From: Puccinia triticina
Taxonomy: Eukaryota; Basidiomycota; Pucciniomycetes; Pucciniales; Pucciniaceae
Reading direction: 5' to 3'
Assembly (NCBI RefSeq): GCF_026914185.1
Contig: NC_070564.1
Location: 3,286,001-3,350,000, forward strand
Length of the DNA stretch: 64,000 bases
Position 1 is the stretch's first letter; each line of letters opens with the position of its first letter. The translations under genes and the position numbers were made by a program. The notes under the pieces are model-generated. The model worked only from the letters and a program-made list of their open reading frames with translations. It was not told the origin of the DNA and searched no databases. This document shows positions 8,609 to 27,601 of this stretch, in pieces.

Positions 8609-9413
8609 TGTGGTGGACAGTTTTGTACACGCGGAGGGATCAAGCTTTTGCCGCGTATGGCGCACGCCGGAGGACCTCAAGCTTCAGGACATCAAGAACT
8701 CAAGCTCTTAGCCCTCAAGGCTTCCTCAAGATTTAATGGCGCGGCGTGGCGTGCATCCTCAAGGTGTTTCAGGTTTCTCTTCCTTTCTTTTCTTTTGTTT
8801 CTGTTTTTCATGGTTCTGTTTCTCTTTCATCATGTTTGTTGTTTTCTTTTTTTTCTTATATGTCTTGGATAGGGTTTGGATGAGGAGGGTTGGTTTTTTT
8901 TGTCTTGTTTCATTTTGTTTTGTTTTGTTTCTGCTGTTTTGTTTGTTGTAGCGCGTGCGTGCGCGCTAGGTTGTGATGAGATGTCTGCTAGATGTCACAA
9001 ACTCCAAGGTTTGAGTTCAGTTTGAACTCAGGCTTTGGAGCGGCATGGACCTACTCTGAACCATAAATTCAGTCTTCCATCAAATATCTAAAGTTTATTA
9101 CTCCTGGCGTCTTCCGCCTGTACTTCTGAGTTTCTCACATCTTCTAAGTTCAATACCCCGCAACGTCAATCTTCTCCAACTCTTTGGTTTAGATCACACC
9201 CTGCCGGCAGTATCCCCGGCTCTCTCTCTCTCAAAAACAAAATTGCCGACGCGCCATTCCAGCCGTCAGAAAATCATCCCCCCCTCACGCTTACACAATC
9301 CTCATAGCACTCACTCGCAGCCAATCACCCCGGAGGGCATACGCAGTCCATTTTCAGTTTTCTCATTCCCCTCCCCCAACTGCTTTCGGCCTAGCACCAG
9401 CAAGAGTTTCTCA
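8609..9413 (+). repeat. 5' LTR of gypsy B
   Basis: It begins TGTGGTGGAC and ends GTTTCTCA. It is a direct repeat of 26076-27601 once the solo LTR in the latter is ignored. It contains a long T-rich tract (8770-8945) followed by GCGCGTGCGTGCGCGC. It would carry the promoter and polyadenylation signals, which I cannot place. Confidence 0.88.
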
Positions 9414-9415
9414 TT

Positions 9416-9465
9416 TGGTCCCCCGAGCCAGGATTGAACCAGCGACCTCAAGATTTACAGTCTTG
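9416..9465 (+). promoter_or_regulatory. Primer-binding site complementary to 50 nt of tRNA-Tyr
   Basis: Two bases after the LTR comes TGGTCCCCCGAGCC. On the other strand this region reads as tRNA from the anticodon stem to the 3' CCA: CAAGACTGTAAATCTTG (a perfect 5-bp stem around loop CTGTAAA, anticodon GTA), AGGTC, a T arm GCTGG/TTCAATC/CTGGC, acceptor strand TCGGGGG, A, CCA. Usual retroelement sites pair with 8-18 nt. The anticodon arm equals that of fungal tRNA-Tyr as I know it. No tRNA intron is present. The 5' half is missing, so this is not a tRNA gene. Confidence 0.85.
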
Positions 9466-9566
9466 CCAATTTGGACGGTCTCGAGACGCTTGGCGGTCTT
9501 CGTTTTCCTTTCTTTCTTCTTTTGGTTTTTTTTAGGGTTCAGCAGCGAGGTCAGGGAGGACTAGAA

Positions 9567-9671
9567 GTAAGTCCCTCCAATTGTGCACCTTTGCAGGTTT
9601 TCCTACTACGAGTCAAAACATTACGTTGCCACGCCTGTGAGCTTTGAATCTAGTCCGTTTCTTTTTGCCAG
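9567..9671 (+). repeat. Intron-like repeat, copy 1 (gypsy B leader)
   Basis: It starts GTAAGTCCCTCC and ends in a pyrimidine tract with TTTTTGCCAG, 105 bp long, just before the gag ATG at 9696. The internal blocks TGTGCACCT, CTACTACG, GTCAAAACATTAC and TGCCACG are shared with three other copies in this element. It could be a spliceosomal intron or a structured RNA element. Confidence 0.7.
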
Positions 9672-9695
9672 GACACCGTTTTAGAGGCGCTAGCA

Positions 9696-10340
9696 ATGGC
9701 CGATGCAACTGCGGGATTGTTGGAGGCAAGGATGGTCAAAATTAAGCCTCAGGACAAGACTTTGGGTTTTGACGGCTCTAATGTGGAGAGATTTCTGGCC
9801 AATTACCAGTTGGTGGCTGAGGCCGACATGGCTCAACAGCTGCGGTTCTTTTTTTGGACAACGGAGGTCAAGGACGTTTTGGAGACTCTGGACGGATTTG
9901 ATCCGCCAAACTGGAAAAACTTTGAAAGCGTCCATGATAGCACATCGGGGCAAGGTCAATATCACACGTTTCATAGTGCAAGACCTGGAGGGTCTGGCTC
10001 AATCATGGAAGGATAAAGGAGGCGTTACGTCGGTCGCCGATTTCCAAGATTTCCGGAAGACTTGGCAGCCCATTCAGGCTTATTTGTTACGGAAGGATCA
10101 TATAGAATCGGTTGAAGAGATTAAGTGTCTCTACTATCAATCATTCTTGCTCGGAGTACAGGAGCGGATCCGTGATCAGCTGATCAAAGAGAAGACTATG
10201 ATCACGACGCAAGACAATAGGTTCAAGCTCCCAAAGTTTGAGATCTTGCGGAAGGCTGTCAAGGAAGTGATGAAGCATCAAACGGCGCTCACCTTTGAGG
10301 ATCTGGAGCAAGAGCTCCCTTCCAGGCAACCCAGTTTCAG
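9696..10340 (+). pseudogene. Gag N-terminal part, gypsy B
   Basis: The ATG at 9696 opens MADATAGLLEARMVKI. Near 9940 the frame shifts and continues as RFIVQDLEGLAQSWKDKG, DFQDFRKTWQPIQAYLLRK and VQERIRDQLIKEKT, a helix-rich capsid-like sequence. A second shift near 10320 leads into the nucleocapsid-protease block. The particle-forming role is inferred from position and composition; the sequence has no sharp signature of its own. The ATG lies 25 bases after the intron-like repeat. Confidence 0.75.
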
Positions 10341-11798
10341 CAATTGAATGACGTGATGAAGAAGATGGAGGCCGACCGCCGGCCAAAAGAGGTGCCAGCC
10401 CAAGCCAGAGCGCTCGCTACAATGGAAGACATTGAGCGCATGTTTCAGTCCTTCAAGCAGCGTCTGGAGCAGAAATTTGCAGCCCAGGCGTGGCCATCTA
10501 CTCCTTGTGGGCCTATGGTATGTTACTACTGCCACAGGGAGGGCCACGGTCTTGGTCAATGCACTGAACTTCAGAAGGATAAGGAGGCTAAACTAGTGGA
10601 GCAACGAGGTGGTAGTTTCTTCCTCCTGAATGGCGCTCTTATTCCAGTGGACAATTTGCTTCCTATACGGCACGTGGTGGCTTCCTATAGCCCAAAGGCG
10701 GAGGTTGTAAGCGCACCGGAGGAGGAATTTCAAGCGGTGTGCGGCTCTTTGGATCCGTGGAGTCCACCTTTGATCTCGTCTCAATCGTTTTCTGGGGTAT
10801 ATCAGTCAGACCCCGCCAAGAAGAAACACAAGGCTCCTAAGCCCTTCAAGGCCCCTGCGATTCCTCCTTCCACAGAGCGGCGACCGCTGCGCAAGTCTTT
10901 GTCTCCTAGAGTGGGATCAGACACAGAAGAAATGGATGCCGAACCCGAACTTTTCGAGCAGATTCCTGCGGCCCCTTCGACTGAAGACGCGTTAAAGGAC
11001 GACTCAGCTGAACCAGCGGCGCCTAAAACATCCCCTAAGGTGCGGTTCAAACGTGGCGTCTCAAAAGACCATCCTAACGCGGTGGACGGCATGCTTAGGA
11101 AGATGTTTGACCTCCCAGTGCTGAATGTCACTGTGGCTGAGTTGCTAGCCGTGGCCCCGTCAGTAGCTGAAGAAATGAAGAAATGGGTGTCCCAAAGACG
11201 TGTGGAGGTTGGGCCGGAGGAGCTGAAGGTGGCTTCTGGAACGCTGGCAGAAGACTCCAAAGGGGAGGGAAGGATCAATGGTATGAGGCTTTATTCTTGC
11301 CCTTTGGGTTACATGCCTTGTTTGGTAGGCAATGAGGAGAGCAATGTGCTTCTGTTGATAGACTCCGGGTCTCAGTTGAATCTTACCTCCAACTCAATGG
11401 CTAACAAGTTCAACATTATCCCGCGCGTGAATTTTAGCTTGGTTGTATATGGGATTGGTAACCAGGCGTGCAAGCTTGTAGGAGTTGCTGAGGACATTCC
11501 AATCCAAGTTGGGAAGAAAATCGTTGGCTCCTGTCACGTGTGGATTACGCGCATGGACGGGCCTCTCATCTTTGGCCGGCCTTTCCTCATGGACTTCAAC
11601 GCCACCCTCAACTTTGACAATCAGGTCGGCGAGAGGATCCTTTTACCAGATTTGACTGGCCGCAAAATCAAGGTCTCGTTATGTTCAGTGGATTCCGGGC
11701 GCTGGGAGGGTGAATTTCCGGGGCATGGATGCAAGGAGGTCCTTTCTCATAAAGGGAAGGCTTGCAAAGACCCTTTGGAGGGTTGTCATTTTTTGTAG
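10341..11798 (+). pseudogene. Nucleocapsid and aspartic protease, gypsy B
   Basis: The frame (484 codons from 10344) contains one CCHC zinc knuckle, CYYCHREGHGLGQC near 10520-10562, then a long acidic, Pro-rich linker, then a retroviral-type protease with LLLIDSGSQLNLTS near 11350-11390. A flap-like VVYGIGNQACKL segment and the block PLIFGRPFLMDFNATL follow. It would process the polyprotein. It ends at a normal stop at 11796-11798, well before RT, so gag-protease and RT-integrase are separate reading units here. Confidence 0.88.
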
Positions 11799-12154
11799 GT
11801 TCGGTTGGTTTGGGAGGCGGCAGATTTAATTTAGAGTCTTGACATCTGGCCGCTGGATCAACCGCATATCTAGAGACTCATAGGCGCTATTTCTCACTAT
11901 CATCTCAGTTTCATCAATTCAAAAACCACAAAAACTCTGAAAAACATCTCAAGAAAACTCAAAGCTTGAAAGAAATAGTTGTTTCCACTCTCACATCATC
12001 CTCTTCGTTTATCAATCAGTCTTCTCAATCTCTCTTCAATTTTTGTCAAGCTCCTGGGAATCTTGCTATTCCAGGGAACTCTTTTTGCGGTGAGGATGCA
12101 GTTCAGGTGTATGTGGAAAAAAAAGGGCTGGCGCGGAGGATGGGAGAGGTACAA

Positions 12155-12256
12155 GTAAGTTCCTCCCAGTTGTGCACCTCCGAGGGTCTTACTGCACCGT
12201 TGAAAACATTACATGCCACATGAGCCGTGGGCCGTTTGATTTCAATTCCTCTTTAG
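12155..12256 (+). repeat. Intron-like repeat, copy 2
   Basis: 102 bp, starting GTAAGTTCCTCCCAGTTGTG and ending with pyrimidines and CTCTTTAG. It shares TGTGCACCTC, CTTACTGCACCG, AAAACATTAC and TGCCACA with the other copies. It lies between protease and RT. Confidence 0.7.
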
Positions 12257-12291
12257 GTCTAACTGCCACGGCGACAGACAAACGCCTCCGC

Positions 12292-12499
12292 AATGAGAAA
12301 AAACTGGCGCTTAATCCACCGGCATCTCGTCTCTGTGACGAGAATAAACTATACAAGTCTCTCTCTCTCCCAAATGAGAATAAACTTCTTTTGTTTCTCC
12401 TGAACAAGAATAAACTTCACAATCTCCACGATGAGCCTAAACTCCCAAGCCTCTACAACAAGGAAAAAACTAAGGATCCTCTGTAATGAGGTTAAACTA
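12292..12499 (+). repeat. In-frame peptide repeat NENKL between protease and RT
   Basis: The 14-bp core AAYGAGAATAAACT recurs at 12292, 12337, 12373, 12403, 12430, 12457 and 12485. The first five spacings (45, 36, 30, 27, 27) are all multiples of three, so one open frame (12172-12486) reads NEKKL, DENKL, NENKL, NKNKL, DEPKL and a weaker NKEKT. The seventh copy lies beyond the stop. Function unknown. Confidence 0.65.
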
Positions 12500-12571
12500 T
12501 TTCATTAGACATTGGCAATTGAAGGAGGAGAGGTTAGTTTTGCACCACCGTGGAGGCCATTTGGAGTAAAA

Positions 12572-12669
12572 TTAAGTTCCTCCCAGGCGTGATGCTCTCA
12601 ACCTGGTCAAAAACCTACCTTGTGCCACATACGTGAGCAATGGACGCTTTTTTGGTTTTTCCTATTCAG
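12572..12669 (+). repeat. Intron-like repeat, copy 3 (donor mutated)
   Basis: 98 bp, aligned with the others through TTCCTCCCA, GTCAAAAAC, TGCCACATACGTGAGCAA and a T-rich tract ending CCTATTCAG. The donor position reads TTAAGT instead of GTAAGT. The RT-coding frame follows immediately. Confidence 0.65.
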
Positions 12670-14533
12670 ACAAGGCTGCCTTCAAGGATCAACAGGAAAA
12701 TCGGACTTGGCTCTTGATGGAAAAGGGTTTGACGCACGGAGAGCAGTTGGCCTTGGTCAAAGTGTGGAAGGAGGAAGGGTTCTTGACCTTTGCGGCGAAG
12801 TATAAACCGGTTGCGCGCAAGGTGAAGCCAGTCAACTTACCAATGCCTCAGCAGCTGAACCCCCCACTTCAAAGGCCGCTGCTTTCTTGTGATCCTTACC
12901 GAGGTCTTTGCAAATCATTGGCCAGCCCTTTCATTCCGCGTGGTCGTGTGCCCGAGGAGCGGTTGCGTGTGGTTAATTTTGGCCCTGATGGCTGGTTGAA
13001 ACCAGATGAGCTTAATCTGATCAAGAACGTGCTATTGGAGAGGAATTGGTTGATTGCTTTCACCCCAGAGGAGCGCGGCCTGCTCAAGGATTCCTACGGA
13101 ATGCCTTACATTATTCCGGTGATCGACCATGAGCCCTGGCAAAAGAAGTGCATCCCTATACCGGCTGCAAAAATCAACGAGTACATTCAGATTATCCGTG
13201 AGCGCGTCAAGAATGGACTTTACAATCAGTCCACCTCAAGTTACACCAGCCCCGTCTTCTGTGTGCTGAAGAGCAACGGGAAATTGAGAGTGGTACACAA
13301 TCTGCAACCCCTCAACAAAGTGACCATCAAGGACGCCGGGATTCCGCCGGCTACTGAAGAATTTGTTGAGTCATTTGTGGGTCAAGCTTGCTATGGTTTG
13401 GGCAATATTATGGGCGGCTATGACAAGCGGGCCCTTGACCCTATCTCTTGGCCTCTTACAACATTTGATCTCCACTTGGATGGTTCCAGCTCACTCGCCT
13501 GCCGCAAGGAGGGAAGAACTCTGTGGCCGTGTATCAGGCACAGATGGTTTGGATACTGCCAGATGAGATCCTGGATCATGCGGAAATTTTCATTGATGAC
13601 GGTGGCATCAAGGGCCCCGTTTCCAATTACAATGGTGAGCGGCTGGTTTGGCATCCTGGAATTTGTCGATTCATCTGGGAGTACGCAACAACTCTCAAGC
13701 GGGTCCTTTTTCGCATTGAGGAATCGGGCTTAACAGTCTCTGCATCAAAGCTAGCGGCGTGTGTCCCCGCACTCGAGATTGTGGGGCATGTTGTGTGTAA
13801 AGAAGGTTGTAAGATGGCAAGGACTAAGGTTAACAAGATCATGTCGTGGCCAACACCATTGAACCCATCTGAGGTCCGCAGTTTCCTTGGCTTAGTGGTG
13901 TACATGCGGATTTTTATTCATCATCTCTTGGAGATCTGCCTGCCGTTGCGGCAACTCACTCGTAAGGATTTGGAATGGGACTGGACGGATGATTGCGAAG
14001 CGGCCTTTCAACGTTTGAAGACAATTGTCGGACAAGATATTGTGCTGGCTAAGATTACTTATGGTCCTGAGGCGGGTCAACTTAAGCTTGCTGTGTATTC
14101 CAGCTTTCATGCGGCAGGGGCGGTCCTTACGCAGACGGATTCAAATGTATTAGATTGGCCCGCCCTGTATGAATCCTTGCTCTTCTCAGACGTAGAATTG
14201 CAATATTCCCAGCCCAAGCTGGAGCTTTGAGGCGTGGCGCGGGTCTTGAAGGAATTGCAAACAGTCCTGTGGGGACAACATTTCGAGCTTCAGGTCAATG
14301 CGCACTCCTTAATCAAGATGATCAACGCGCCAAGTCTACCTAACGCGCCCATGACGCGTTGGGTTTTGTTTGTACAACTCTTTTCATTCGACATTGTCCA
14401 CCGGCCCGGAAAATCCTTCACCATTCCACACGAGCTTTCTTGGAGACCTTGTAATGACGACGACTCAGATCCCCCTTTGGATTTTGAGGAGAGAGGCTCC
14501 GCACATCAGGGCGCGGCATTCTTATGCCGCTAG
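12670..14533 (+). pseudogene. Reverse transcriptase and RNase H, gypsy B
   Basis: The frame runs from the end of the third intron-like repeat. RT blocks include TSPVFCVLKSNGKLRVVHNL, QPLNKVTIKDAG, and after a frameshift near 13470, LGWFQLTRLPQGGKNSVAVY-like sequence and the catalytic IFIDDGGIKG near 13590. FLGLVVYMRIFI marks the connection. RNase H begins about 14090 (YSSFHAAGAVLTQ), is cut by TGA at 14228-14230 inside an LE-L-stop-GVARVL block, and ends with IVHRPGKSFTIPHELSWRP. The RNase H residue usually Asp in QVDAH reads Asn. A further shift lies near 14500-14530. The enzyme would copy RNA to DNA and degrade the template. Confidence 0.9.
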
Positions 14534-15734
14534 TGCAGATGACGTCTACTTGGGTTATCAAGAAGTTTACTGGCCAAAAATGGAGCAGTTCTTAGCTACT
14601 CTGCGCAAGCCAGACGGGATGGACGCAAAGGAGTTCCGCGCGTTGAAGCGTCAATTGTCAGAATTTTTCCTAAAAGCCGGTTGACTCATGAAGAGGGGAA
14701 GTCCCCTACCCCGAATAGTTGTCATGATCCCGTCAAAGCAGCAGGAGATTCTCACCAAGCTTCACAAAAATTTGGGCCATCGAGGCTCATGCAAGACATA
14801 TCGCCGGGTTTCTGAGCAGTTTTGGTGGCCGTTGTTGAACGATGCAGTGGCTAAGTGGTGCCAGAGCTGCAAAGCATGTCAAAAGAAGGATCTTCAACGT
14901 CCGCAAGAATTGCACTATCCCACGGGCGAGTCAACCATTTTTCGATCAAGTTTCCATGGATGCCGTGCATCTGAAGGCTGGCGGCGCTAAGTACTTAATA
15001 GTTGCGCGAGACAACTTCTCAGGTTGGGTTGAAGCAAAGATGCTCAATAATTTGACGTTGGAGGCAGTAGCGACATTCTTGAAAGAGCATTGGACGATGT
15101 GGTACGGGCTAGCTCAAGCGTACTCAACGGATGGGGGCTCTGAGTTTGGTGGGGCACTGGCGGCTATGTTGAGGACCCTACCAGGTCAGCATCGTGTTTC
15201 CACCCCCTACTACCTTGAAGGCCAAGGAATGGTGGAACGTGGCCACGGTCCCCTCAAGGCGGCGCTAGTGAAGTTGGCAGGCAAAAGCGGCAAGCATTGC
15301 CGCAAGTTCTTGCCTTTGGTTTTGTTTGCTGATCGGATATCAACAAAACGTACCACCGGCTACTCCCCTTACAAGCTTGTGTTTGGCCAGCAGGCAGTCC
15401 TTCCGCTGGATCTAGAGATCAAATCTTATCTAGGGGTTGACTGGGACTCAGTCCAAGCCCCTGCCGGCCTGCTTGCCGCGCGCTCTCGCCAATTGGAACG
15501 CAGTGAAGGTCGTGTACAAAAAGATGATGGATGCAAGAGAGGGTTCTGTTTGGTACTGGGAAGAGAAGGACGCGTCGCGTATTCGGGAACCACTCAAGCT
15601 GGGCAATCAGGTCCTTGCCTACAACCGGTCACTGGAAATTCAGTGGGGCCAGTTGTTTGCCCATTTTTGGAACGGCCCGTATCGCGTCGTCAAGCAGGTG
15701 CCCGGCAGTTCTTATGTCTTGGAAGAACTCAATT
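14534..15734 (+). pseudogene. Integrase, gypsy B (split by the CACTA element)
   Basis: After a TGA at 14682-14684 comes the zinc-binding HHCC module (LHKNLGHRG, CQSCKACQKKD). A frameshift near 14930 leads to the catalytic core: Asp in VSMDAVHLK, Asp in STDGGSEF and Glu in EGQGMVERGHG, the DDE triad. Another shift near 15480 opens the C-terminal GPY/F module (FWNGPYRVVKQV, GSSYVLEEL). The reading then stops at the CACTA insertion at 15735 and resumes at 25806 (TELKWGFAADQVKRFF), so the last 20 or so residues lie 10 kb away. It would insert element DNA into the genome. Confidence 0.9.
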
Positions 15735-16430
15735 CACTACCAAGATGGATGAATTTGCGATGTCGTATATTGATCAATATAGCGTGTATTGATCAATTTA
15801 TATTGATCAATTTTTTTTTTTTTATTATTCCTCTTGATACCTTTGTCTGTTTTCCATGTCTCCTTGATACTATTCTATAATCTCTCTCCTTCTGCCTGTG
15901 TTAGCTTCAAGCCACAGGAATTTTTTTTTCTTTTGCCTGATAACATTCATAAATTTCTACACACACCACTCAATTCTTCCTGAAAAAAAGATGTTGCAAG
16001 TTTTAGGATTAATCCAGGGTAGCTGAGGGGTCTCAAATTTTTTTTCTTTTTTTTTTACTTCAACAATTGATGTTATCAGAAGTCTCCAAATCGACTTTTT
16101 TTCAAAAGAGGAAAAACATTGACCCCTGACCTCTCTCATGATACCATCCTGCACACATTTTTAATTTGGTTGGTTAAATTTTCTCAAGATATTGCATATC
16201 ATACTTGAAGTGCTACATGCATAGGAGGCCTTTTTGAAATTAGTTTACCATGGTTTAGCATATTTTTGTCAGGTTCTTTTTTTTATCTACTTTTGTTATC
16301 AACCACAGATTAATGAGGAATATTTCCACATAAAATTTCATCGGACAATTTTTTCTGCATATGAAACCCAGAAATGTTTTAAAATATAATTTATTTGGGG
16401 TCACATCCTCTATGCAGCAGCAACAATGTG
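15735..16430. repeat. Left long terminal inverted repeat, CACTA element 1
   Basis: It pairs with 25140-25802 in reverse complement over its whole length. Near the tip TATATTGATCAATATA-like palindromes recur. Homopolymer T tracts differ in length between the two arms. Parts recur at 50606-50915 and 58790-59190. Confidence 0.9.
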
Positions 16431-17483
16431 ATCAGTTCCCAAATATCACTAATTTGGTAGTTTCTTGGTGTTTCTGCCACTATATCTCAACACAGCCTGG
16501 GAGTTCTTCCATGATATTGGTATCATAATAATCAATAGCCACCAAGGATTTATTGTGTACCTTAAATGACCACAAAACCTCCAAATGTAGCAGCTACAAT
16601 CTGACCAGTTGCCAAATCTCACTAATTTGGTAGTTTCTTGGTGTTTCTGCCACTATATCTCAGCACAGCATGGGAGTTCTTCCATGATATTGGTACCATA
16701 ATGATCACATGCCCTCAAAGATTTATTGTGTACCTTTAATGACCACAAAACCCTCAAATGTAGCAGCCACAATGTGATCAGTTGCCAAATATCACTAATT
16801 TGGTAGTTTCTTGGTGTTTCTGCCACTATATCTCAGCGCAGCGTGGGAGTTCTTCCATGATATTGGTACCAAGATGATCAAATGCCCTCAAAGATTGATT
16901 GAGTACCTTGAATGACCACAAAACCCCCAAGTGTAGCAGGCAAGATGTGATCAGTTGCCAAATATCACTAAGTTGGTAGTTTCTTGGTGTTTCTGCCACT
17001 ATATCTCAGCGCAGCATGGGAGTTCTTCCATGATATTGTTACCAAAATAATCAAATGCTCTCAAATATTCATTGTGTACCTTGAATGACCACAAAACCCC
17101 CAAATGTAGCAGCTACAATGTGATTGGTTGCCAAATATCACTAATTTGGTAGTTTCTTGGTGTTTCTGCCACCATATCTCAGCGCAGCATGGGAGTTCTT
17201 CCATGATATTGGTACCAAAATGATTAATCACCCCTGAAGATTCATTGTGTACCTTGGATGACCACAAAACCCCCAAATGTAGCAGCCACAATGTGATCAG
17301 TTGACAAATATTGCTAATTTGGTAGTTTCTTGGTGTTTCTGCCACTATATCTCCACCCAGCATGGGAGTTCTTCCATGATACAGGTATATTAAAATGATC
17401 ACCTGCCTTCAAACATTCATTGAGTACCTTGGATGACCACGAAACCCCCAAATGTAGCAGCCACAATGTAATCAGTTGCCAAA
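16431..17483 (+). repeat. 173-bp satellite, about 6 forward units
   Basis: The unit runs GATCAGTTGCCAAATATCAC ... TTCTTCCATGATATTGGTACC ... CCCCCAAATGTAGCAGCC. CCAAAT-ATCACTA-ATTTGG inside each unit is a short hairpin. The array is broken at 17484 by the captured segment. Confidence 0.92.
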
Positions 17484-17865
17484 TCCCACTTTCTTAAATC
17501 CACAGAATTATAGGCCTGCAGATCTAAGTTTTGGGGTGTTTTTTTCTCACAAAATGGGGCAAAAATTGCCCCATTATTCTCACTTGGCACGTTGAATATC
17601 CCCAAAGGCCCAAAGGCCCTATGGATGACCCTCCAGCTGTCCCAGAGCAACAAGCAAAAGAGGCCCGGTTGGTAAACTAGCCAGGGAGGGCTTAACCAAG
17701 CAGTTAGGGGCCTCCCAGGGAGGGGGCGGACAAAACCAAATCCCCTGCGGATTAATCAAGTCACCTCCTCTATATATACCCACCAGCAACACCCCACCCC
17801 ACTGCACCTTTAGCAAGACAACGGCCACGCCACCCGCCTCCCTAGCTACCGTAACCGCCTTGGTG

Positions 17866-18450
17866 GTACCTCCACCTTGCCCCGCCAGCCAACACGCCAC
17901 TCCCTGGGCACCCTGCGCGACCAGCTCATCTATCCCGACTCGCGCGCAGACATGGCCACCCATGGCGTCTCCAACGACGACCTCCTCCGCATCCTCGCCA
18001 TTGTTGACTTGGACGCCATCTTCCAGCGCGAGGGCGGCTGGGACGTTGTCTGGGAATGGCGAGATGCGCTCAGCGGCTCGCCATCTGCAGACTCTACTAC
18101 CATTCCCCCTTTTCCCGATGGCGTGGGTTGCTTACTCTGCCCCACTCACATGTTGTTGTTAGTATGCTATTCTCGACAAATGCGCATCCGCGGTCACGCT
18201 TGATGTGGAGAAGATCATGTACAAACACGCCACCTCGCTCGGGATCACTCTGCTGACGGTATCGCACCGTCCGTCGCTGTGGAAGTACAACAAGTTGGCC
18301 CCCTCTGCCCCCCTCCCCTCCACCCGCCTCTCCGCTCATCTTTTTTTACTTGGCAAGTATATCTTGCAGTACAACGGCGAGGGCGGGTACTGCTTCACCC
18401 GGATGGACGCGGAGAAGCGGCTGGCTCTGCAGGAAGAAAAACAGGTCGGT
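17866..18450 (+). pseudogene. Peroxisomal ABC transporter (ABCD family), nucleotide-binding domain fragment
   Basis: Split frames encode the C-terminal ATPase domain of an ABCD-type half-transporter, which imports fatty acyl-CoA into peroxisomes. Visible parts: SLGTLRDQLIYPDS, LAIVDLDAIFQREGGWDVVW, EWRDALSG, then LAICRLYYHS, then [38 protein letters not shown] and [20 protein letters not shown]. Two gaps look like introns: one ending at 18162 and one of 64 bp at 18294-18357 (GT...AG). The signature LSGGEKQR is lost: a small deletion near 18076 joins LSG to LAICR and shifts the frame. The Walker B glutamate is Lys (codon 18178-18180). It is therefore dead. It lies in a CACTA element, a type known to pick up gene fragments. 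Confidence 0.82.
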
Positions 18451-18857
18451 TCTGTCCCTGCCCCTGTGTGTTTGGTGGATGTGTTTGATGATCTAGACAC
18501 CAGCGGGTGCGTCAGGGACCTCCCAACAATATTTGATTCCTGCAACCATTCGGCAGACTCGGTCCATCAACCCCCCTTGCGCCTCGCGTGTCTCCCTGCC
18601 CACCTCCCAATGGCCCCACTCAATTTGTTCTCCTCTTCCGATGACAACAACGGCTTTCTGCTCCGTCGAGCCTCCTCCTTCTCCCTCCCAGTGTCGCCAG
18701 CTCAAAAAATGGCCTCAAGGCTTGCCGCGGGCTTACCAAGCCCCTCTCACTATCCCTCACCTTCCCCGAAGCCAACAAAAACAACAGCAACCATCATAAC
18801 CATTAGCAGCAGTAACAGTCCAACATCGCCCAAGCCCTGGTCACCCCTCAGAGAATG

Positions 18858-19130
18858 ACACAAGCCGAGCACCGGCAGCAACATCTACTCCAAGAACTGC
18901 CTTCTTTCACTCGCTGCCTCCCTTGCCTCGGCTTGGAGACCTTGGCCAAGCCTGTGCCCAGTTTGTAGGCATCAAGGTCAACATCACCGGCGGGCTGTCA
19001 ATGAAGCAATACATCTTGATCCCCTGGCTTTTGCTGGGCGGGATCAGCTGGACGGACACTTTGAGGGGGTACAACCCCGTCCGCCTGATTGGCGGGAATA
19101 ACAAGTGTCATTAACACCCCTGTCCAGCTG
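18858..19130 (+). other. Unrecognised GC-rich remainder of the captured segment
   Basis: A short plus-strand frame (18923-19114) reads FVGIKVNITGGLSMKQYILI and LLLGGISWTDTLRGYNPVRL. It does not match anything I know. It could be a further exon of a captured gene. Confidence 0.3.
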
Positions 19131-19741
19131 CACTTCAACACGGTGACTGCGGGCGAAGGCCGTCAGGAACTGATGAGCTTGCGAACGGGATTCAACCCCT
19201 ATTCTTGCCAATAGTTTTTGGTATTAATTGATATCTATTGCATATATCTCTGCTTTTGATTCATAATTTGTTTCCAAATTTTGTGGTATTGATACATCTG
19301 ATCATAAATATATGAATTTCTTCTTGGCTTTTTATAATGTTGCACTGTTTATTGTGTGGAAAGATCTAATATTTGCAACTTGATAACTTCCAAATATTAT
19401 ACCATTAAAGATTAAGCAGCATGTTTATTGACAACACTCCAATAACTCAGAGTATGGAGTAAAATTGTGGGTGAGGTAAGTTTGTAAAATCTAAATACCA
19501 TATGAGGAGTGTTTTGATGTGACTCCTATTCCATGAGATGTGATGAAGAAGGCTTGGATAGCAAGGGGGGTCAAACATGCCAAATTGGGGAGGTGAAATG
19601 TTTGCTTGTTTACTCTGTTGCTGTAAGGCCGAGTTTGAAAATCTCAAGAGCAATGATTTAAATGAATGCATTCAAGTCTCCTGAATTTTGACACACCCAT
19701 TCCCTGCTTGCCCTGATTCAGGGGGAAGGAGCCGCCTTGGC

Positions 19742-22700
19742 CTCTAGTATCACTAATTTGGTAGTTGCTGAATGTTTCTGCCACTATATCTCAGCACAGT
19801 GTGAGAGTTCTTCCATGATATTCGTACCAAAATGATCACATTCCCTCAAAAATTCATTGAGTACCTTGGATAACCACAAAACCCTCAAATGTAGCAGCCA
19901 CAATGTGATCAGTTGACAAATATCACTAATTTGGTTGTTTCTTGATGATTACGCCACTATATCTCAGCACAGCGTGCAAGTTCTTCCATGATATTGGTAC
20001 CAAAATTATCAAATGCCCCTGAAGATTCATTGTGTACCTTAAATGAACACAAAACCCCCAAATGTAGCAGCCACCATGTGATCAGTTGCCAAATATCACT
20101 AATTTGGTAGTTTCTTGGTGTTTCCGCCACTATATCTCAGTGCAGAATGGGAGTTCTTCCATGATATTGGTACCAAAATGATCACATGCCCTCAAAATTT
20201 TATTGAGGATCTTGGATGACCACAAAAGCCCCAAATGTAGCAGCCACCATGTGATCAGTTGCCAAATATCACTAATTTGGTAGTTTCTTGGTGTTTCTGC
20301 CACCATCTCTCAGCCCAGCGTGGGAGTTCTTCCATGATATTGGTACCAAATTGATCACATGCCCCTGAAGATTCATTGTGCACCTTGAATGACCACAAAA
20401 CACCCAAATGTAGCAGCCACAATGTGATCAGTTGCCAAATATCACTAATTTAGTAGTTTCTTGATGTTTCTGCCACTATATCTCAGCACAGCGTGGGAGT
20501 TCTTCGATGATACTGATACCAAAATGGTCAAATGCCCTCACAGATTCATTGAGTACCTTTGATGACCACAAAACCCCCAAATGTAGCAGCCACAATGTGA
20601 TCAGTTGCCAAATATCACTAATTTGGTAGTTTCCTGATGTTTCTGCCACTATATCTCAGCACAGTGTGGGAGTTCTTCCATGATATTGGGACCAAAATTG
20701 TCTTATGCCCTCAAACATTCATTGGGTACCTTGGATGACCACAAAACCCCCAAATGTAGCAGCCACAATGTGATCAGTTGACAAATATCACTAATTTGGT
20801 AGTTTCTTGATGATTCCGCCACTATATCTCAGCACAGCGTGGGATTTCTTCCATGATATTGGTACCAAAATTATCAAATGCCCCTGAAGATTCATTGTGT
20901 ACCTTAAATGAACACAAAACCCCATAATGTAGCAGCCACCATGTGATCAGTTGCCAAATATCACTAATTTGGTAGTTTCTTGGTGTTTCTGCCACTATAT
21001 CTCAGCGCAGCGTGGGAGTTCTTCCATGATATTGGTACCAAAATGATCACATGCCCCTGAAGATTCATTGTGTACCTTGAATGACCACAAAACCCCCAAA
21101 TGTAGCAGCCACACTGTGATCAGTTGCCAAATATCACTAATTTGGTAGTTTCTTGGTGTTTCTGCCACTATATCTCAGCCCAGCGTGGGAGTTATTCCAT
21201 GATATTGGTACCATATTTATCACATGCCCCTGAAGATTCATTGTGCACCTTGAATGACCACAAAACACCCAAATGTAGCAGCCACAATGTGATCAGTTGC
21301 CAAATATCACTAATTTAGTAGTTTCTTGATGTTTCTGCCACTATATCTCAGCACAGCGTGGGAGTTCTTCGATGATACTGGTACCAAAATGATCAAATGC
21401 CCTCAAACATTCATTGGGTACCTTGGATGACCACAAAACCCCCAAATGTAGCAGCCACAATGTGATCAGTTGACAAATATCACTAATTTGGTAGTTTCTT
21501 GATGATTCTGCCACTATATCTCAGCACAGCGTGGGATTTCTTCCATGATATTGGTACCAAAATTATCAAATGCCCCTGAAGATTCATTGTGTACCTTTAA
21601 TGAACACAAAACCCCATAATGTAGCAGCCACCATGGGATCAGTTGCCAAATATCACTAATTTGGTAGTTTCTTGGTGTTTCTGCCACTACATCTCAGCGC
21701 AACGTGGGAGTTCTTCCATGATATTGGTACCAAGATGATTACATGCCCCTGAAGATTCATTGTGTACCTTGAATGACCACAAAACCCCCAAATGTAGCAG
21801 CCACACTGTGATCAGTTGCCAAATATCACTAATTTGGTAGTTTCTTGGTATTTCTGCAACTATATCTCAACACAGCCTGGGAATTTTTCCATGAATTTGG
21901 TACCAAAATTTTTGAAAGCCCCCATAGATTCATTGTGTACCTTGAATGACCACAAAATCCCCAAATGTAGCTGCTACAATCTGATCAGATGCCAAATATC
22001 ACTAATTTGGTAGTTTCTTGGTGTTTCTGCCACTATATCTCAGTGCAGAATGGGAGTTCTTCCATGGTATTGGTACCAAAATGATCCCATGCCCTCAAAA
22101 TTTTATTGAGGATCTTGGATGACCACAAAACCCCCGAATGTAGCAGCCACCATGTGATCAGTTGCCAAATATCACTAATTTGGTAGTTTCTTGGTGTTTC
22201 TGCCACTATATCTCAGCCCAGCGTGGGAGTTCTTCCATGATATTGGAACCGAATTTATCACATGCCCCTGAAGATTCATTGTGCACCTTGAATGACCACA
22301 AAACCCCCAAATGTAGCAGCCACAATGTGATCAGTTGCCAAATATCACTAATTTGGTAGTTTCCTGATGTTTCTGCCACTATATTGCAGCACAGTGTGGG
22401 AGTTCTTTCATGATATTGGTACCAAAATGGTCTTATGCCCTCAAAAATTCATTGGGTACCTTGGATTACCACAAAACCCCCAAATGTAGCAGCCACAATG
22501 TGACCAGTTGACAAACATCACTAATTTGGTAGTTTCTTGATGATTCCTCCACTATATCTCAGCACAGCGTGGGAGTTCTTCCATGATATTGGTACCAAAA
22601 TTATCAAATGCCCCTGAAGATTCATTGTGTACCTTAAATGAACACAAAACCCCCAAATGTAGCAGCCACCATGTGATCAGTTGCCAAATATCACTAATTT

Positions 22701-23556
22701 GGTAGTTTCTTGGTGTTTCCGCCACTATATCTCAGTGCAGCATGGGAGTTCTTCCATGATATTGGTACCAAAATGATCACATGCCCTCAAAATTTTATTG
22801 AGGATCTTGGATGACCACAAAAGCCCCAAATGTAGCAGCCACCATGTGATCAGTTGCCAAATATCACTAATTTGGTAGTTTCTTGGTGTTTCTGCCACCA
22901 TCTCTCAGCCCAGCGTGGGAGTTCTTCCATGATATTGGTACCAAATTGATCACATGCCCCTGAAGATTCATTGTGCACCTTGAATGACCACAAAAACCCC
23001 AAATGTAGCAGCCACAATGTGATCAGTTGCCAAATATCACTCATTTGGTAGTTTCTTGATGTTTCTGCCACTATATCTCAGCACAGCGGGGGCGTTCTTT
23101 GATGATACGGGTACAAAATGATCAAATGCCCTCACAGATTCATTGAGTACCTTTGATGACCACAAAACCCCCAAATGTAGCAGCCACAATGTGATCAGTT
23201 GCCAAATATCACTAATTTGGTAGTTTCTTGGTGTTTCTGCCACTATATCTCAGCGCAGCATAAGATTTCTTCCATGATATTGGTACCAAAATGATCACAA
23301 GCCCTTCAACATTCATTGAGTACCTTGGATGACCACAAAACCCCCAAATGTAGCAGCCACAATGTGATCAGTTGCCAAATATCACTAATTTGGTAGTTTC
23401 TTGGTGTTTTTGCCACTATATCTCAGCTCAGCGTGGGAGTTCTTCCATGATGTTGGTACCAAAATGATCAAATTCCCCTGAGAATTTGGAGTGTACCTTG
23501 AATGACCACAATACCCCCAAATGTAGCAGCCACACTGTGATTAGTTGCCAAATTAG
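19742..23556 (+). repeat. 173-bp satellite, about 22 forward units
   Basis: The same unit as 16431-17483. Successive starts of ATCAGTTGCC at 20081, 20254, 20427 and 20600 give a 173-bp period. Units fall into sub-variants that recur in the same order, suggesting higher-order duplication of several units at once. Confidence 0.93.
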
Positions 23557-25139
23557 TGATATTTGGCAACCATTCACATTGTAGCTGTTACATTTGGGGG
23601 TTTTGTGGTCATTCAAGATACACAATTCATCTTTGAGGGCATTTAACCATCTTGGTACCAATATCATTGAAGAATTCCCACGCTGCGCTGAGATATAGTG
23701 GCAGAAACACCAAGATACTACCAAATTGGTGATATTTGGCAACTGATCACATTGTGGCTGCTACATATGGGGGTATTGTGGTCATTCCAGGTACTCAATG
23801 AATCTTTGAGGGAATTTGATCATTTTGATACCAATATTATGGAAGAAATCCCACGCTGCGCTGAGATATAGTGGCAGAAACACCAGAAACTACCAAATTA
23901 GTGATATTTTGCAACTGATCACATCCTAGCTGCTACATTTGGGGGTATTGTGGTCATTAAAGGTACACAATTAATCTTCAGGGGAATTCAATCATTTTGG
24001 TACCAATATCATGGAAGAACTCCCACGCTGTGCTGAGATATAGTGGCAGAAACACCAATAAACTACCAAATTAGTGATATTTGGCAACTGATCACATTGT
24101 GGCTGCTACATTTGGGGGTTTTGTGTTCATTCAAGGTACATCATGAATCTTCCGGGGCATATGATCATTTTGGTACCAATATCATGGAAGAAATCCCACG
24201 CTGCAATGAGATATAGTGGTAGAAACACCAACAAACTACCAAATTAGTGATATTTGGTAACTGATCACATTGTGGCTGCTACATTTGGGGGTTTTGTGGT
24301 CATCAAAGGTAATCAATGAATGTTTCAGTTCATGTGATTATTTTGGTACCAATATCATGGAAGAACTCCCAGGCTGCTTTGAGATATAGTGGCAGAAACA
24401 CCAAGAAACTACCAAATTAGTGATATTTGGCAACTGATCAGGGCGTAGGGCTACATTAGGGAGTTTCATGGTAATACACAATGAATCCTTGGGGACTATT
24501 GATCATTTTGAAACCAATATCATGGAAGAACTCCCAGGTTGTGTTGAGATATAGTGGCAGAAACACCAAGAACCTACCAAATTAGTGAGATTTGGCAACT
24601 GATGAGATTGTAGCTGCCACATTTGGGGGTTTTGTGGTCATTTAAGGTACACAATGGATCCTTGGGAGCTACTGAACATTTCGATACCAATATCATGGAA
24701 GAACCCCCAGGCTGTGTTGAGATATAGTGGTAGAAACACCAAGAAACTACCAAATTAGTGATATTTGGCAACTGATCAGGTCGCAGGGGCTACATTAGGG
24801 AGTTTTGTGGTCATTAAAGGTACACAATGAATCCTTGGGGACTATTGATCATTTCGAAACCAAAATCATGGAAGAACTCCTGTGCTGTGTTGAGATATAG
24901 TGGCAGAAACACCAAGAAACTACCAAATTAGTGATATTTGACCACTGATCAGATTGCAGCAGCTACATTTGGGGATTTTGTGGTCATTCAAGGTACACAA
25001 TGAATCTATGGGTGCTTTCAAAAATTTTGGTACCAAATTCATGGAAAAATTCCCAGGCTGTGTTGAGATATAGTTGCAGAAATACCAAGAAACTAACAAA
25101 GTAGTGAGATTTGGCAACTGATCAGATTGCAGCTGCTGC
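23557..25139 (-). repeat. 173-bp satellite, about 9 inverted units
   Basis: From 23557 the unit runs in reverse complement. The junction is a palindrome (GTTGCCAAATTAGTGA meeting TATTTGGCAAC). Inverted copies are more diverged from each other than the forward block. Confidence 0.93.
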
Positions 25140-25802
25140 ATAATGGATGTGACCCCAAAAACATTATTTCTGGGTTTATATTCAGAAAAATTGTTCAACA
25201 AAATTTTATGTGGAAATATTCCTCATTAATCTGTGTTTGATAATAAAAGTAGATAAAAAAAAGAACCTGACAAAAATATGCTAAACCATGGTAAACCAAT
25301 TTCAAAAAGGCCTCCTATGCATGTAGCAATTCAAGTATGATATGCAATATCTTGAGCAAGTTCAACCAACCAAATTAAAAACGTGTGCAGGATGGTATCA
25401 TGAGAGAGGTCAGGGGTCAATGTTTTCCTTTTTTTAAAAAAAAGTCAATTTGCAGACTCCTGATAACAGATCAATTGTTGAAGTAAAAAAAAAAGAAAAA
25501 AAAAATTGAGACCCCTCAGCCACCCTGGATTAATCCCAAAACTTGCAATGTCTTTTTTTCAGGAACAATTGAATGGTGTATTTAGAAATTTATGAATGTT
25601 ATCAGGCAAAAAAAAAAAAAATCCTGTGGCTTGAAGCTAACACAAGGGGAAGGAGAGAGATTATAGAATAGTATTAAGGAGACATGGAAAACAGACAAAG
25701 GTATCAAGAAGAATCATAAAAAAAAATTGATCAATATAAATTGATCAATATATGCTATATTGATCAATATACGACATCGCAAATTCATCCATCTTGGTAG
25801 TG
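25140..25802. repeat. Right long terminal inverted repeat, CACTA element 1
   Basis: Reverse complement of 15735-16430 with scattered substitutions and changes in poly-A length. It ends in CTTGGTAGTG before the ATT duplication. Confidence 0.9.
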
Positions 25803-25805
25803 ATT

Positions 25806-25881
25806 GAACAGAGCTTAAGTGGGGTTTTGCCGCGGATCAGGTCAAGAGATTTTTTTCTTGTGGGGACCTTTTGGACCAGAA
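25806..25881 (+). pseudogene. Integrase C-terminal tail, gypsy B, displaced by insertion
   Basis: Directly after the right CACTA end and the ATT duplication, the frame reads TELKWGFAADQVKRFF, the natural continuation of YVLEELN at 15730. One stop (TGA) sits at the junction codon after the two halves are joined. The intron-like repeat copy 4 begins at 25882. Confidence 0.8.
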
Positions 25882-26009
25882 GTAAGTTCCCCCTCCAAGT
25901 ATGCACCTCTGGGTATCTACTACCGCGATTTCGTCAAAACTCTACTCTATGCCACAATCGTGAGCAACGCGGAGGCCCTTGGTTTGCTTTTCTTTTCTTT
26001 TTCTTCTAG
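25882..26009 (+). repeat. Intron-like repeat, copy 4 (after integrase)
   Basis: 128 bp, GTAAGTTCCCCCTCC to TTTCTTTTTCTTCTAG. It shares TATGCACCTCTGGG, CTACTACCGCG, GTCAAAACTCTAC and TGCCACAATCGTGAGCAA with the other copies. It lies between the integrase end and the 3' LTR. Confidence 0.7.
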
Positions 26010-26075: not shown

Positions 26076-27601
26076 TGTGGTGGACATTTTGGTACACTCG
26101 GAGGGATTAAGCTTTTGCCGTGTATGGCGCGCGCCGGAGGACCTCAAGATTCAGAACATCAAGAACTCAAGCTCTTAGCCCTCAAGGCTTCCTCAAGATT
26201 TAATGGCGCGGCATGGCGTGCATCCTCAAGGCGTTTCAGGTTTTTCTTCCTTTCTTTTCTTTTGTTTCTGTTTTTCATGGTTCTGTTTCTTTTTCATCAT
26301 GTTTTTATTTTCTTTTTTTTTTCTTATATGCGCGTCTTAGATAGGGTTTGGATGAGGAGGGTTGGTTTTTTTTGTCTTGTTTCATTTTGTTTTGTTTTGT
26401 TTCTGCTTTTTTCTTTGTTGTAGCGCGCGCATGCGCGCTAGGTTGTGATGAGATGTCTGCTAGATGTCCCAAACTCCAAGGTTTGAGTTCAGTTTGAACT
26501 CAGGCTTTGGAGCGGCATGGACCTACTCTGAACCATAAATTCAGTCTTCCATTAAATATCTAAAGTTTATTACTCCTGGCGTCTTCCGCCTGTACTTCTG
26601 AGTTTCTCACGTTGTGGTGTTCAAATTGGTACAGAGCCTCAAGACTGTTCAAATCAACAAGTCATCAAGATCATCAACTTCAAGATTCCACCCCTCAAGA
26701 TCAGCCATTTTCAGCTCTTCAAGATCCTCAAGATTCATTCTCTAGATTTCCATCCCCATCCCTTTTCTTTTCATTATTATTTAGTCCTCTTCCTGTTTCT
26801 TGGTCCTAACACATGTACTATGTGGGTTTATTATGATGTTTTCTTTTTTCACTTTATCCTGTTTGGTTTCCTCTTTAAGCTTTGTTTATTCTTTTCTTCT
26901 GCTTGTTGTTTGTTGGGTTTTGTTTTGTTTTGTTTTCTTTCCTGGTGGTTTTGTTTTGTAGTTAGGGATGTGATGACATGTCCTGTGACATGTCACTCCC
27001 CAGAGTCCAAGTTCGAGTTTGAACTTGGAGGATGGGACGGCATGGGACTTGCTCTGATCCAAGAGAATTCCATCACTTTTCTGATCCGCTGGCAGCATCC
27101 CCAGCACTATCCCTGATCCTTATCCCCCTTATCATCATCACCTGATTCTCCCAAAACCAACCACCGCCAACGGTATTCCATCCCCGCCGTCTCTCAAAAA
27201 TCCACCCCCAACGCTATCACTCTTTTTGATCCTCATCTCATTTCTCGGACCACCCACGAGGGCAGCTCAACAGCACCCATCCCCTTGACGCTCTGCCTAC
27301 CTCCTGGCACGGTAGGAGTTCCACAACGTCTTCTAAGTTCAATACCCTGCAACTTCAATCTTCTCCAACTCTTTGGTTTACATCACACCCCGCCAACAGT
27401 ATCCCCGGCTCTCTCTCTCTCAAAAACAAAATCGCCAACACGCCATTCCAGCCGTCAGAAAATCATCCCCCCCCACGCTTACACGATCCTCATAGCGCTC
27501 ACTCACGGCCAATCACCCCGGAGGGCATACGCAATCCATTTTCAGTTTTCTCATTCCCCTCCCCCAACTGCTTTCGGCCTAGCACCGGCAAGAGTTCCTC
27601 A
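26076..27601 (+). repeat. 3' LTR of gypsy B, containing a solo LTR
   Basis: It begins TGTGGTGGAC and ends GTTCCTCA. It aligns with 8609-9413 except for 26613-27325 plus a 4-base duplication. Without that it is about 809 bp. The purine-rich GTGGGTGGA just before it is a plausible plus-strand primer. Confidence 0.88.
26613..27325 (+). mobile_element. Solo LTR inserted in the gypsy B 3' LTR
   Basis: 713 bp from TGTGGTGTTC to GTTCCACA, flanked by ACGT on both sides (26609-26612, 27326-27329). The other gypsy B LTR has the uninterrupted site. Its T-rich block, the ATGACATGTC region and the AACTCNAGTTTGAACT region resemble the host LTR, so it comes from a diverged relative. Internal sequence was lost by LTR-LTR recombination. 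Confidence 0.85.

Follow-up and report, generated by a model that had tools for sequence, protein, structure and literature searches.

In the current study, we analyzed a 64,000-nucleotide stretch of the genome of the rust fungus Puccinia triticina (C7:3286001-3350000 of a 122.8-Mb assembly in 18 contigs, the single genome studied; the stretch as a whole is hereafter called the window). It holds a Ty3/gypsy retrotransposon, bounded by long terminal repeats (LTRs), that carries four related intron-like units, designated c1 to c4 (Table 1). The start codon of gag-pro lies about 25 nt past the acceptor of c1, and the TAA stop codon of pol (25883-25885) sits within the GTAAGT donor of c4; E01, the relative whose pieces were matched to the coding regions in the window, is arranged alike. 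The order of domains typical of Ty3/gypsy elements was found in the E01 pieces, where RVT_1, RT_RNaseH, Integrase_H2C2, and rve follow one another, all above the cut-off; an aspartyl protease match ahead of RVT_1 was weak and fell below it. The 16-kb span of the four units in the window is a local accident, because an insertion at about 15.74 to 25.75 kb splits pol and parts the end of the integrase region and c4 from the rest of the element. In several relatives, c1 and c2 are about 2.6 kb apart, and c2 and c4 about 3.8 kb.

Table 1. Features of the Ty3/gypsy element and its intron-like units (positions in the window)
Feature	Position	Length	Strand	Basis and remarks
5' LTR of gypsy element	8609-9413		+	blastn repeat with 26076-26610 (95%) and 27316-27601 (93%)
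c1 module, exon part	9541-9566		+	5' arms of donor hairpin; alignments, hairpin test
c1 intron	9567-9671	105 nt	+	In leader; GTAAGT..CAG; alignment, profile search
gag-pro, broken frame	9696-11798		+	tblastn with E01 pieces
c2 module, exon part	12129-12154		+	Hairpin arms; in pol frame of relatives
c2 intron	12155-12256	102 nt	+	GTAAGT..TAG; within pol frame of relatives
c3 module, exon part	12546-12571		+	Hairpin arms; alignments
c3 intron	12572-12669	98 nt	+	Donor decayed to TTAAGT, internal stretch lost, CAG acceptor
pol, broken frame	12670-15736		+	Reverse transcriptase (RT), RNase H, and integrase by match to E01 pieces
Insertion splitting pol	15737-25750		.	Holds 173-bp tandem array; boundaries approximate
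3' end of pol	25751-25885		+	Weak match (E 6e-6), ends 25882 in frame
c4 module, exon part	25856-25881		+	Hairpin arms; alignments
c4 intron	25882-26009	128 nt	+	GTAAGT..TAG; intron missing at five other loci
3' LTR	26076-27601		+	Interrupted between 26610 and 27316; blastn repeat

The initial annotation of this stretch had proposed four related units of 98 to 128 nt at precisely these positions, and their homology is clear. Profiles built from three copies and searched against the fourth gave E values of 1e-11 (c1), 3e-13 (c2), 6e-9 (c3), and 5e-9 (c4), far below the best match in 10 block-shuffled windows (E 0.12); this control rules out chance similarity. As it had also described, three of the units begin with GTAAGT, one has a decayed donor, and all four end in a pyrimidine-rich tract followed by AG. 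The exon/donor joint (marked here by a slash) reads AA/GTAAGT in c1, c2, and c4 and AA/TTAAGT in c3. By alignment, the window copies are eroded: an internal stretch is gone from c3, and c2 is short of a few bases. Alignment also extends the likeness among the copies to about 24 nt of exon upstream of the donor, so that the upstream similarity noted earlier (ca. 25 bp) is real; this stretch holds the 5' arms of an RNA hairpin (see below). A known RNA family was ruled out as the identity of the module, given that Rfam scans returned no listed match overlapping it at 6 loci (E up to 5) and zero matches of any kind at a further 6 (E up to 2).

Relatives were collected by genome searches with each copy, which gave 40 scored places apiece; 20 element entries (E01 to E20) were picked, and pieces were fetched around c1, c2-c3, and c4. 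The copies are thus a sample rather than an exhaustive set. For 18 entries, all three pieces map to a single contig and strand and span no more than about 18 kb, from which their membership in a single element was inferred (piece spacing is wider than usual in E07, E08, E14, and E19); for E11 and E20, the c4 piece was taken from a different locus, and the presence of c4 in the same element applies to the other 18. The members of E01 to E04, E05/E06, E07/E08, and E18/E19 are near-identical. All 20 entries contain profile matches to c1, c2, and c3, as do all 20 c4 pieces to c4; since 18 of the 20 have c4 on the contig and strand of the other units, the introns have been retained in replicated copies. 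Three entries (E17, E18, and E19) possess an extra copy (c0) upstream of c2. When 67 distinct units were placed on a tree, c1 and c4 formed one clade apiece, whereas c2 and c3 needed 2 and 4 changes, respectively; the five position labels together needed 5 changes, against a mean of 38.3 after shuffling (0/200 as low), in a tree with few columns for so many rows. Since the copies cluster by position, the set of position-specific copies is, judged from the unit sequences, old.

The core pattern of the module, AAGTAAGTN{10,15}TGCACCTCC, had 941 exact matches in the genome (467 and 474 by strand; this is a count, with the first places listed and the matches not inspected singly), while the reversed pattern had none. 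A scan of viral contigs with the same pattern yielded 21 records with one match each, which, by rough expectation and not by inspection of the matches, we take to be chance. Among the places found with the c2 copy as query, three of equal score lie on one strand at C1:4159792, 4237166, and 4314541, a spacing of about 77.4 kb that suggests a large tandem segmental duplication.

Both splice sites are conserved among the relatives. Alignment of genomic copies had been suggested by the initial annotation as a check for loss of GT/AG; the GTAAGT donor turned out to be kept in 84 of 87 gypsy copies (c1, 21/21; c2, c3, and c4, 20/21 each; c0, 3/3), the exceptions being c3 of the window, c2 of E13, and c4 of E19. 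For the acceptor, we reduced the 98 units with an intact donor pattern to 57 by removing units alike in their 3' part. A YAG preceded by at least 7 pyrimidines in 10 nt was present in 54 of these 57 nonredundant units versus 56 of 255 control windows; with at least 8 in 10, the figures were 50/57 and 38/255. The relatives thus keep the donor and the pyrimidine-tract acceptor of a spliceosomal GT-AG intron.

Some genomic copies lack the c4 intron altogether. When c1 was joined to c4 in a single query, five of the 40 rows crossed the joint by 8 nt, and at all five loci, once fetched, c4's own intron was found to be missing, with the joint at the predicted GT/AG in four and one nt short of it in one. 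A dedicated query with the joined c4 exons recovered the same five loci among 40 scored places. At least two types of downstream exon can be told apart among them by eye, along with three types of upstream context, and at least two losses are therefore likely. One of them (L167) matches E15 at 92% as far as the vicinity of the donor, and E15 keeps c4; because so close a relative has the intron, loss through spliced, reverse-transcribed RNA would be the natural reading, with exact deletion, or intron gain instead, as formal alternatives. The intronless copies lend strong indirect support to splicing at c4, and at c4 only, and together with the conserved signals they bear out the intron-like character first proposed for the units. 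We also noticed a family of nonautonomous-looking derivatives (L165, L168, and L169), all three without the c4 intron, one of which (L165) has c1 plus a further internal copy of the module.

The module occurs in a second host. A divergent match to the core pattern lies in the leader of a Ty1/copia element (one locus, C1:3.496-3.501 Mb), in which Pol_BBD, SH3_retrovirus, and RVT_2 were above the cut-off and a zinc knuckle and rve were below it; integrase precedes RVT_2 there, as judged from the weak rve match at this one locus. The gypsy profile detected two modules (E 1.9e-9 and 2.8e-4), one just 5' of the open reading frame (ORF) and the other at the ORF end, with the stop codon overlapping the donor region there. 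In genome searches, the leader copy was found at 15 places and the end copy at 16; we read 14 and 15 of these, respectively. By eye, the donor GT[AG]AGT was present in 13/14 leader copies and 15/15 end copies, and CAG stood at the same column in all 14 leaders and all 15 ends; the GTAAGT/GTGAGT variation among leaders is a change between two good donors. The bases right before CAG in the end copies do not form a clean pyrimidine tract. Past the leader acceptor, the sequence looks coding, yet no start codon leading into it was found. An identical 81-bp direct repeat flanks the coding region of the copia locus (L115 1389-1469, L150 2812-2892) and is possibly a very short LTR.

The 5' splice site, AA/GUAAGU, lies in an RNA hairpin that pairs a 5' arm from the upstream exon with a 3' arm from the intron; inward of it follow UGCACCUCC and GCCAC..GUGAGC, then the pyrimidine tract and YAG. 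In register-limited comparisons of own with swapped 3' arms, gypsy units gave z scores of -6.05 (n = 45) and -4.96 (n = 35), each with 0/20,000 permutations, and -3.7 in the smallest set (n = 26; 4/20,000). With gypsy and copia units combined, the z scores were -6.56 (n = 43) and -5.69 (n = 32), again with 0/20,000 each. These tests place the donor within a conserved, covarying hairpin, and the room that had been left for an RNA element beside the intron is filled by a structured one that extends 5' of the donor. Across the 40 aligned units, the inner GCCAC..GUGAGC element hardly varies and hence has no covariation support.

E01 shows how the units relate to the reading frames. Its LTRs are identical over 817 bp, its gag-pro frame has 709 codons from the first ATG (starting just past the c1 module), and its pol frame is open for 1,309 codons (1,269 from the first ATG) through c2 and c3 to the TAA in the c4 donor. 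The placement given by the initial annotation must be amended in this respect: c1 does precede gag, but in E01 both c2 and c3 fall within the pol ORF, in its 5' part, not between ORFs, and c4 overlaps the pol stop. In E01 the introns measure 104, 109, 112, and 123 nt (c1 to c4), and c3 is 112 nt in 11 of the 11 entries measured. With c2 and c3 both of length 3n+1, splicing of either would shift the pol frame in E01; as splicing of c4 would in addition remove the pol stop codon, intron retention is needed for normal Pol. The open frame through c2 and c3 likewise implies the use of unspliced RNA. The donors of the pol copies lie in one shared frame in 19 of the 19 entries where all were found, and this frame is stop-free from c2 to 900 nt past c3 in 13/20. 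One copy with an open frame is located at C17:2.707-2.718 Mb. Database proteins of P. coronata and P. triticina also appear, from their peptides by eye, to read through the module. Among those of P. striiformis are proteins that join protease and RT. No donor near the end of gag-pro that could fuse gag-pro to pol stood out by eye.

c2 and c3 are inside the pol frame yet constrained at the nucleotide level. Across 11 entries, differences per codon position are flat in c2 (0.235/0.212/0.258) and shallow in c3 (0.319/0.208/0.374), whereas pol 90 to 390 nt past the c3 acceptor is coding-like (0.216/0.119/0.569). Synonymous differences per 15-codon block (14 entries) are 0.08 to 0.38 up to the c3 acceptor and 0.48 to 0.69 beyond it; in the relatives, coding-type constraint on pol starts at the c3 acceptor. 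Values are also low, and nearly even over the codon positions, in the interval between c2 and c3 (0.241/0.196/0.292; 11 entries). In this interval (window 12286-12468; L053, L165, and P0039), pol encodes an LRNENKL-like repeat of variable copy number, the DNA of which is more alike than the rest of pol.

With moderate confidence, we favor the explanation that the units are facultative introns with repressive donor hairpins and that their retention marks genomic RNA. Each unit would be a short spliceosomal intron, spliced facultatively and endowed with an RNA fold of its own. The sampled gypsy elements carry the units before gag (c1), in the 5' part of pol (c2, c3, and sometimes c0), and across the pol stop (c4), and a copia element carries them before its ORF and at the ORF end. 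c1, c2, and c3 would be spliced in part of the RNA; the donor hairpin may slow splicing, leaving much RNA unspliced, and this unspliced RNA would serve both as genome and as pol mRNA. Presumably, the conserved core, which would be present only in unspliced RNA, functions there by marking the RNA as full length.

Several points weigh against this explanation. Splicing at c1, c2, and c3 is suggested by the signals alone, and in joined queries with power mainly for E01-like copies, 0/47 rows for c1 and 0/42 for c3 crossed the joint by more than 1 nt. The c2 copy of E10 is without a good acceptor, and no clear branch point was identified by eye (in c4 of E01, few adenines were seen between GTGAGC and the acceptor). 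The five c4-less loci, some of which share flanks, may represent as few as two losses. As for the fold, copia hairpins alone gave a z score of only -2.5 (n = 9; 122/20,000), some copia leader copies fold no better than swapped ones, and the fold is weak in several gypsy units, e.g., in three c4 units. When duplexes were tested without constraint, the signal was weak for the hairpin (z = -2.3; 243/20,000) and fell short of significance for an outer helix (z = -1.2; 2199/20,000); this test was confounded by two GGAGG/CCUCC pairs and was replaced by the register-limited test. With RNAalifold, hardly any consensus structure emerged from the full set of copies.

A distributed packaging or identity signal is a possible alternative, though not the one that we would expect to prevail. 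Here, Gag or a host factor would bind the structured core of full-length RNA, and the splice sites would serve mainly to strip this mark. Such a signal would suit a module whose best-conserved stretches (UGCACCUCC and GCCAC..GUGAGC) are inside the intron, which stands at ORF borders in elements of two superfamilies, and of which c4-less copies are few (5 of 40 scored places). Those very copies, however, indicate that RNA minus one module can still be copied, and the inner hairpin, being nearly invariant, offers no covariation in its favor.

We are more tentative about a broader proposal, namely, that a transferable cis-acting RNA module common to Ty3/gypsy and Ty1/copia elements of one fungus flanks their ORFs and links splicing to genome identity. 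Only RNA unspliced at every module would keep the cores that mark it for packaging or export, and the element would in effect proofread the completeness of its genomic RNA. The occurrence of the module in both superfamilies suggests a shared way of separating full-length from spliced RNA. A repeated, folded intron module of this kind would make the question of how retroelements bar spliced RNA from their genomes directly testable, since it comes with a defined sequence, a fold that can be proposed, and naturally occurring copies without one intron. On a practical note, gene models in rust genomes may misread these introns as coding sequence.

It seems unlikely that the set serves to make subgenomic mRNAs by joining the c1 leader donor to the acceptors of c2, c3, and c4, as the initial annotation had suggested. 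Splicing from a leader donor to a downstream acceptor is used for foamy-virus pol, and in the rust element a leader donor and downstream acceptors exist and are conserved, with coding-type constraint on pol setting in at the c3 acceptor. On the other hand, genomic fossils of a c1-to-c3 joint numbered 0/40 rows (joint crossed by more than 1 nt), and the five rows that crossed the c1-to-c4 joint reflect the removal of c4's own intron; the fossil test covered these two joints, and the absence of fossils is weak evidence. Moreover, each site has kept its own donor, which this model does not need, and in E01 about 0.3 kb separates the c2 acceptor from the first in-frame ATG of pol that follows it. 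Introner-like self-copying of the units within the element, which had also been raised, is a poor fit and very improbable: related introns are indeed repeated in a single element, with the further copy c0 in some entries, but both the likeness and the fold take in about 24 nt of the upstream exon, so that the unit is not the intron alone, and the copies cluster by position, the two grounds on which we rejected it; in addition, both modules of the one copia locus read stand at ORF borders. A conserved Pol peptide repeat (e.g., cleavage sites), with GT/AG kept by codon chance, can be dismissed with near certainty, since the stop-free frame through c2 and c3 and the uninterrupted database proteins that would fit it are outweighed by the codon-position data on which it was rejected (flat across c2), by the location of c1 before gag and of c4 across the pol stop, and by c2 acceptor residues that vary (by eye) yet keep AG in 20/21 copies, E10 excepted.

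Other features of the elements deserve brief mention. The insertion that splits pol in the window contains the 173-bp tandem array at 16273-25167, for which 28 overlapping in-register copies were listed, plus inverted copies. An ARAGORN scan found no tRNA gene in the window. Beside the 5' LTR (window 9416-9470; L033 1237-1296), the primer-binding site seems to run into about 50 nt of antisense tRNA, with an anticodon arm that we take to be that of tRNA-Tyr(GUA); at the primer-binding-site stretch of E01, Rfam gave a tRNA match of 22.6 bits, below the gathering score. In E17, two antisense tRNA matches of 42.9 bits (L069 925-996 and 1150-1221), 225 bases apart, sit in the 5' part of pol, right after c3.

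The module was not described in the open-licence papers that we searched and may be described elsewhere. If the units are facultative introns with repressive donor hairpins, one parallel is BARE1, a Ty1/copia element of barley, in which some but not all transcripts lose a 104-nt intron; its removal changes the frame and switches pol off, and the replicated RNA is unspliced (PMC3735527). Both cases would then involve a short facultative intron inside an LTR retrotransposon, the splicing of which breaks the pol frame. BARE1 differs in having a single intron after gag in a plant copia element, and the portions of that report available to us mention neither a repeated structured module nor a second superfamily (PMC3735527). 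In the plant Ty3/gypsy element Ogre, as far as the accessible text goes, splicing removes the region between ORFs, and the whole polyprotein is made (PMC6317226); in E01, by contrast, c2 and c3 lie in the pol frame, which splicing would break, and other copies stand before gag and across the pol stop.

The donor hairpin recalls HIV-1, in which, according to the sections available, a repressive local hairpin masks the major donor and unspliced RNA is needed for Gag-Pol, a different conformation also having been proposed (PMC4974535). Masking of the donor in the rust element is an analogy drawn from this case, and the available account of HIV-1 concerns a single leader donor, whereas the rust element repeats a hairpin-donor together with its own nearby acceptor (PMC4974535). 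Cer1/CERV, too, is an LTR retrotransposon with used splice sites that must export unspliced genomic RNA; there, an encoded export protein is involved, and no repeated RNA module is mentioned in the text at hand (PMC10309623). Introners resemble the rust units in forming families of sequence-similar introns, but they spread into many genes (PMC9860276), while the rust copies whose surroundings were read (pieces of at least about 1 kb) are in LTR retroelements, at fixed positions, with likeness reaching into the exon. The main text of the introner paper, as available, makes no mention of Puccinia or LTR (PMC9860276). Facultative introns in LTR retrotransposons are thus already known, with one intron each in the published cases that we found, to the extent that those sources could be consulted; the rust module is folded, is repeated four or five times per element, and occurs in two superfamilies.

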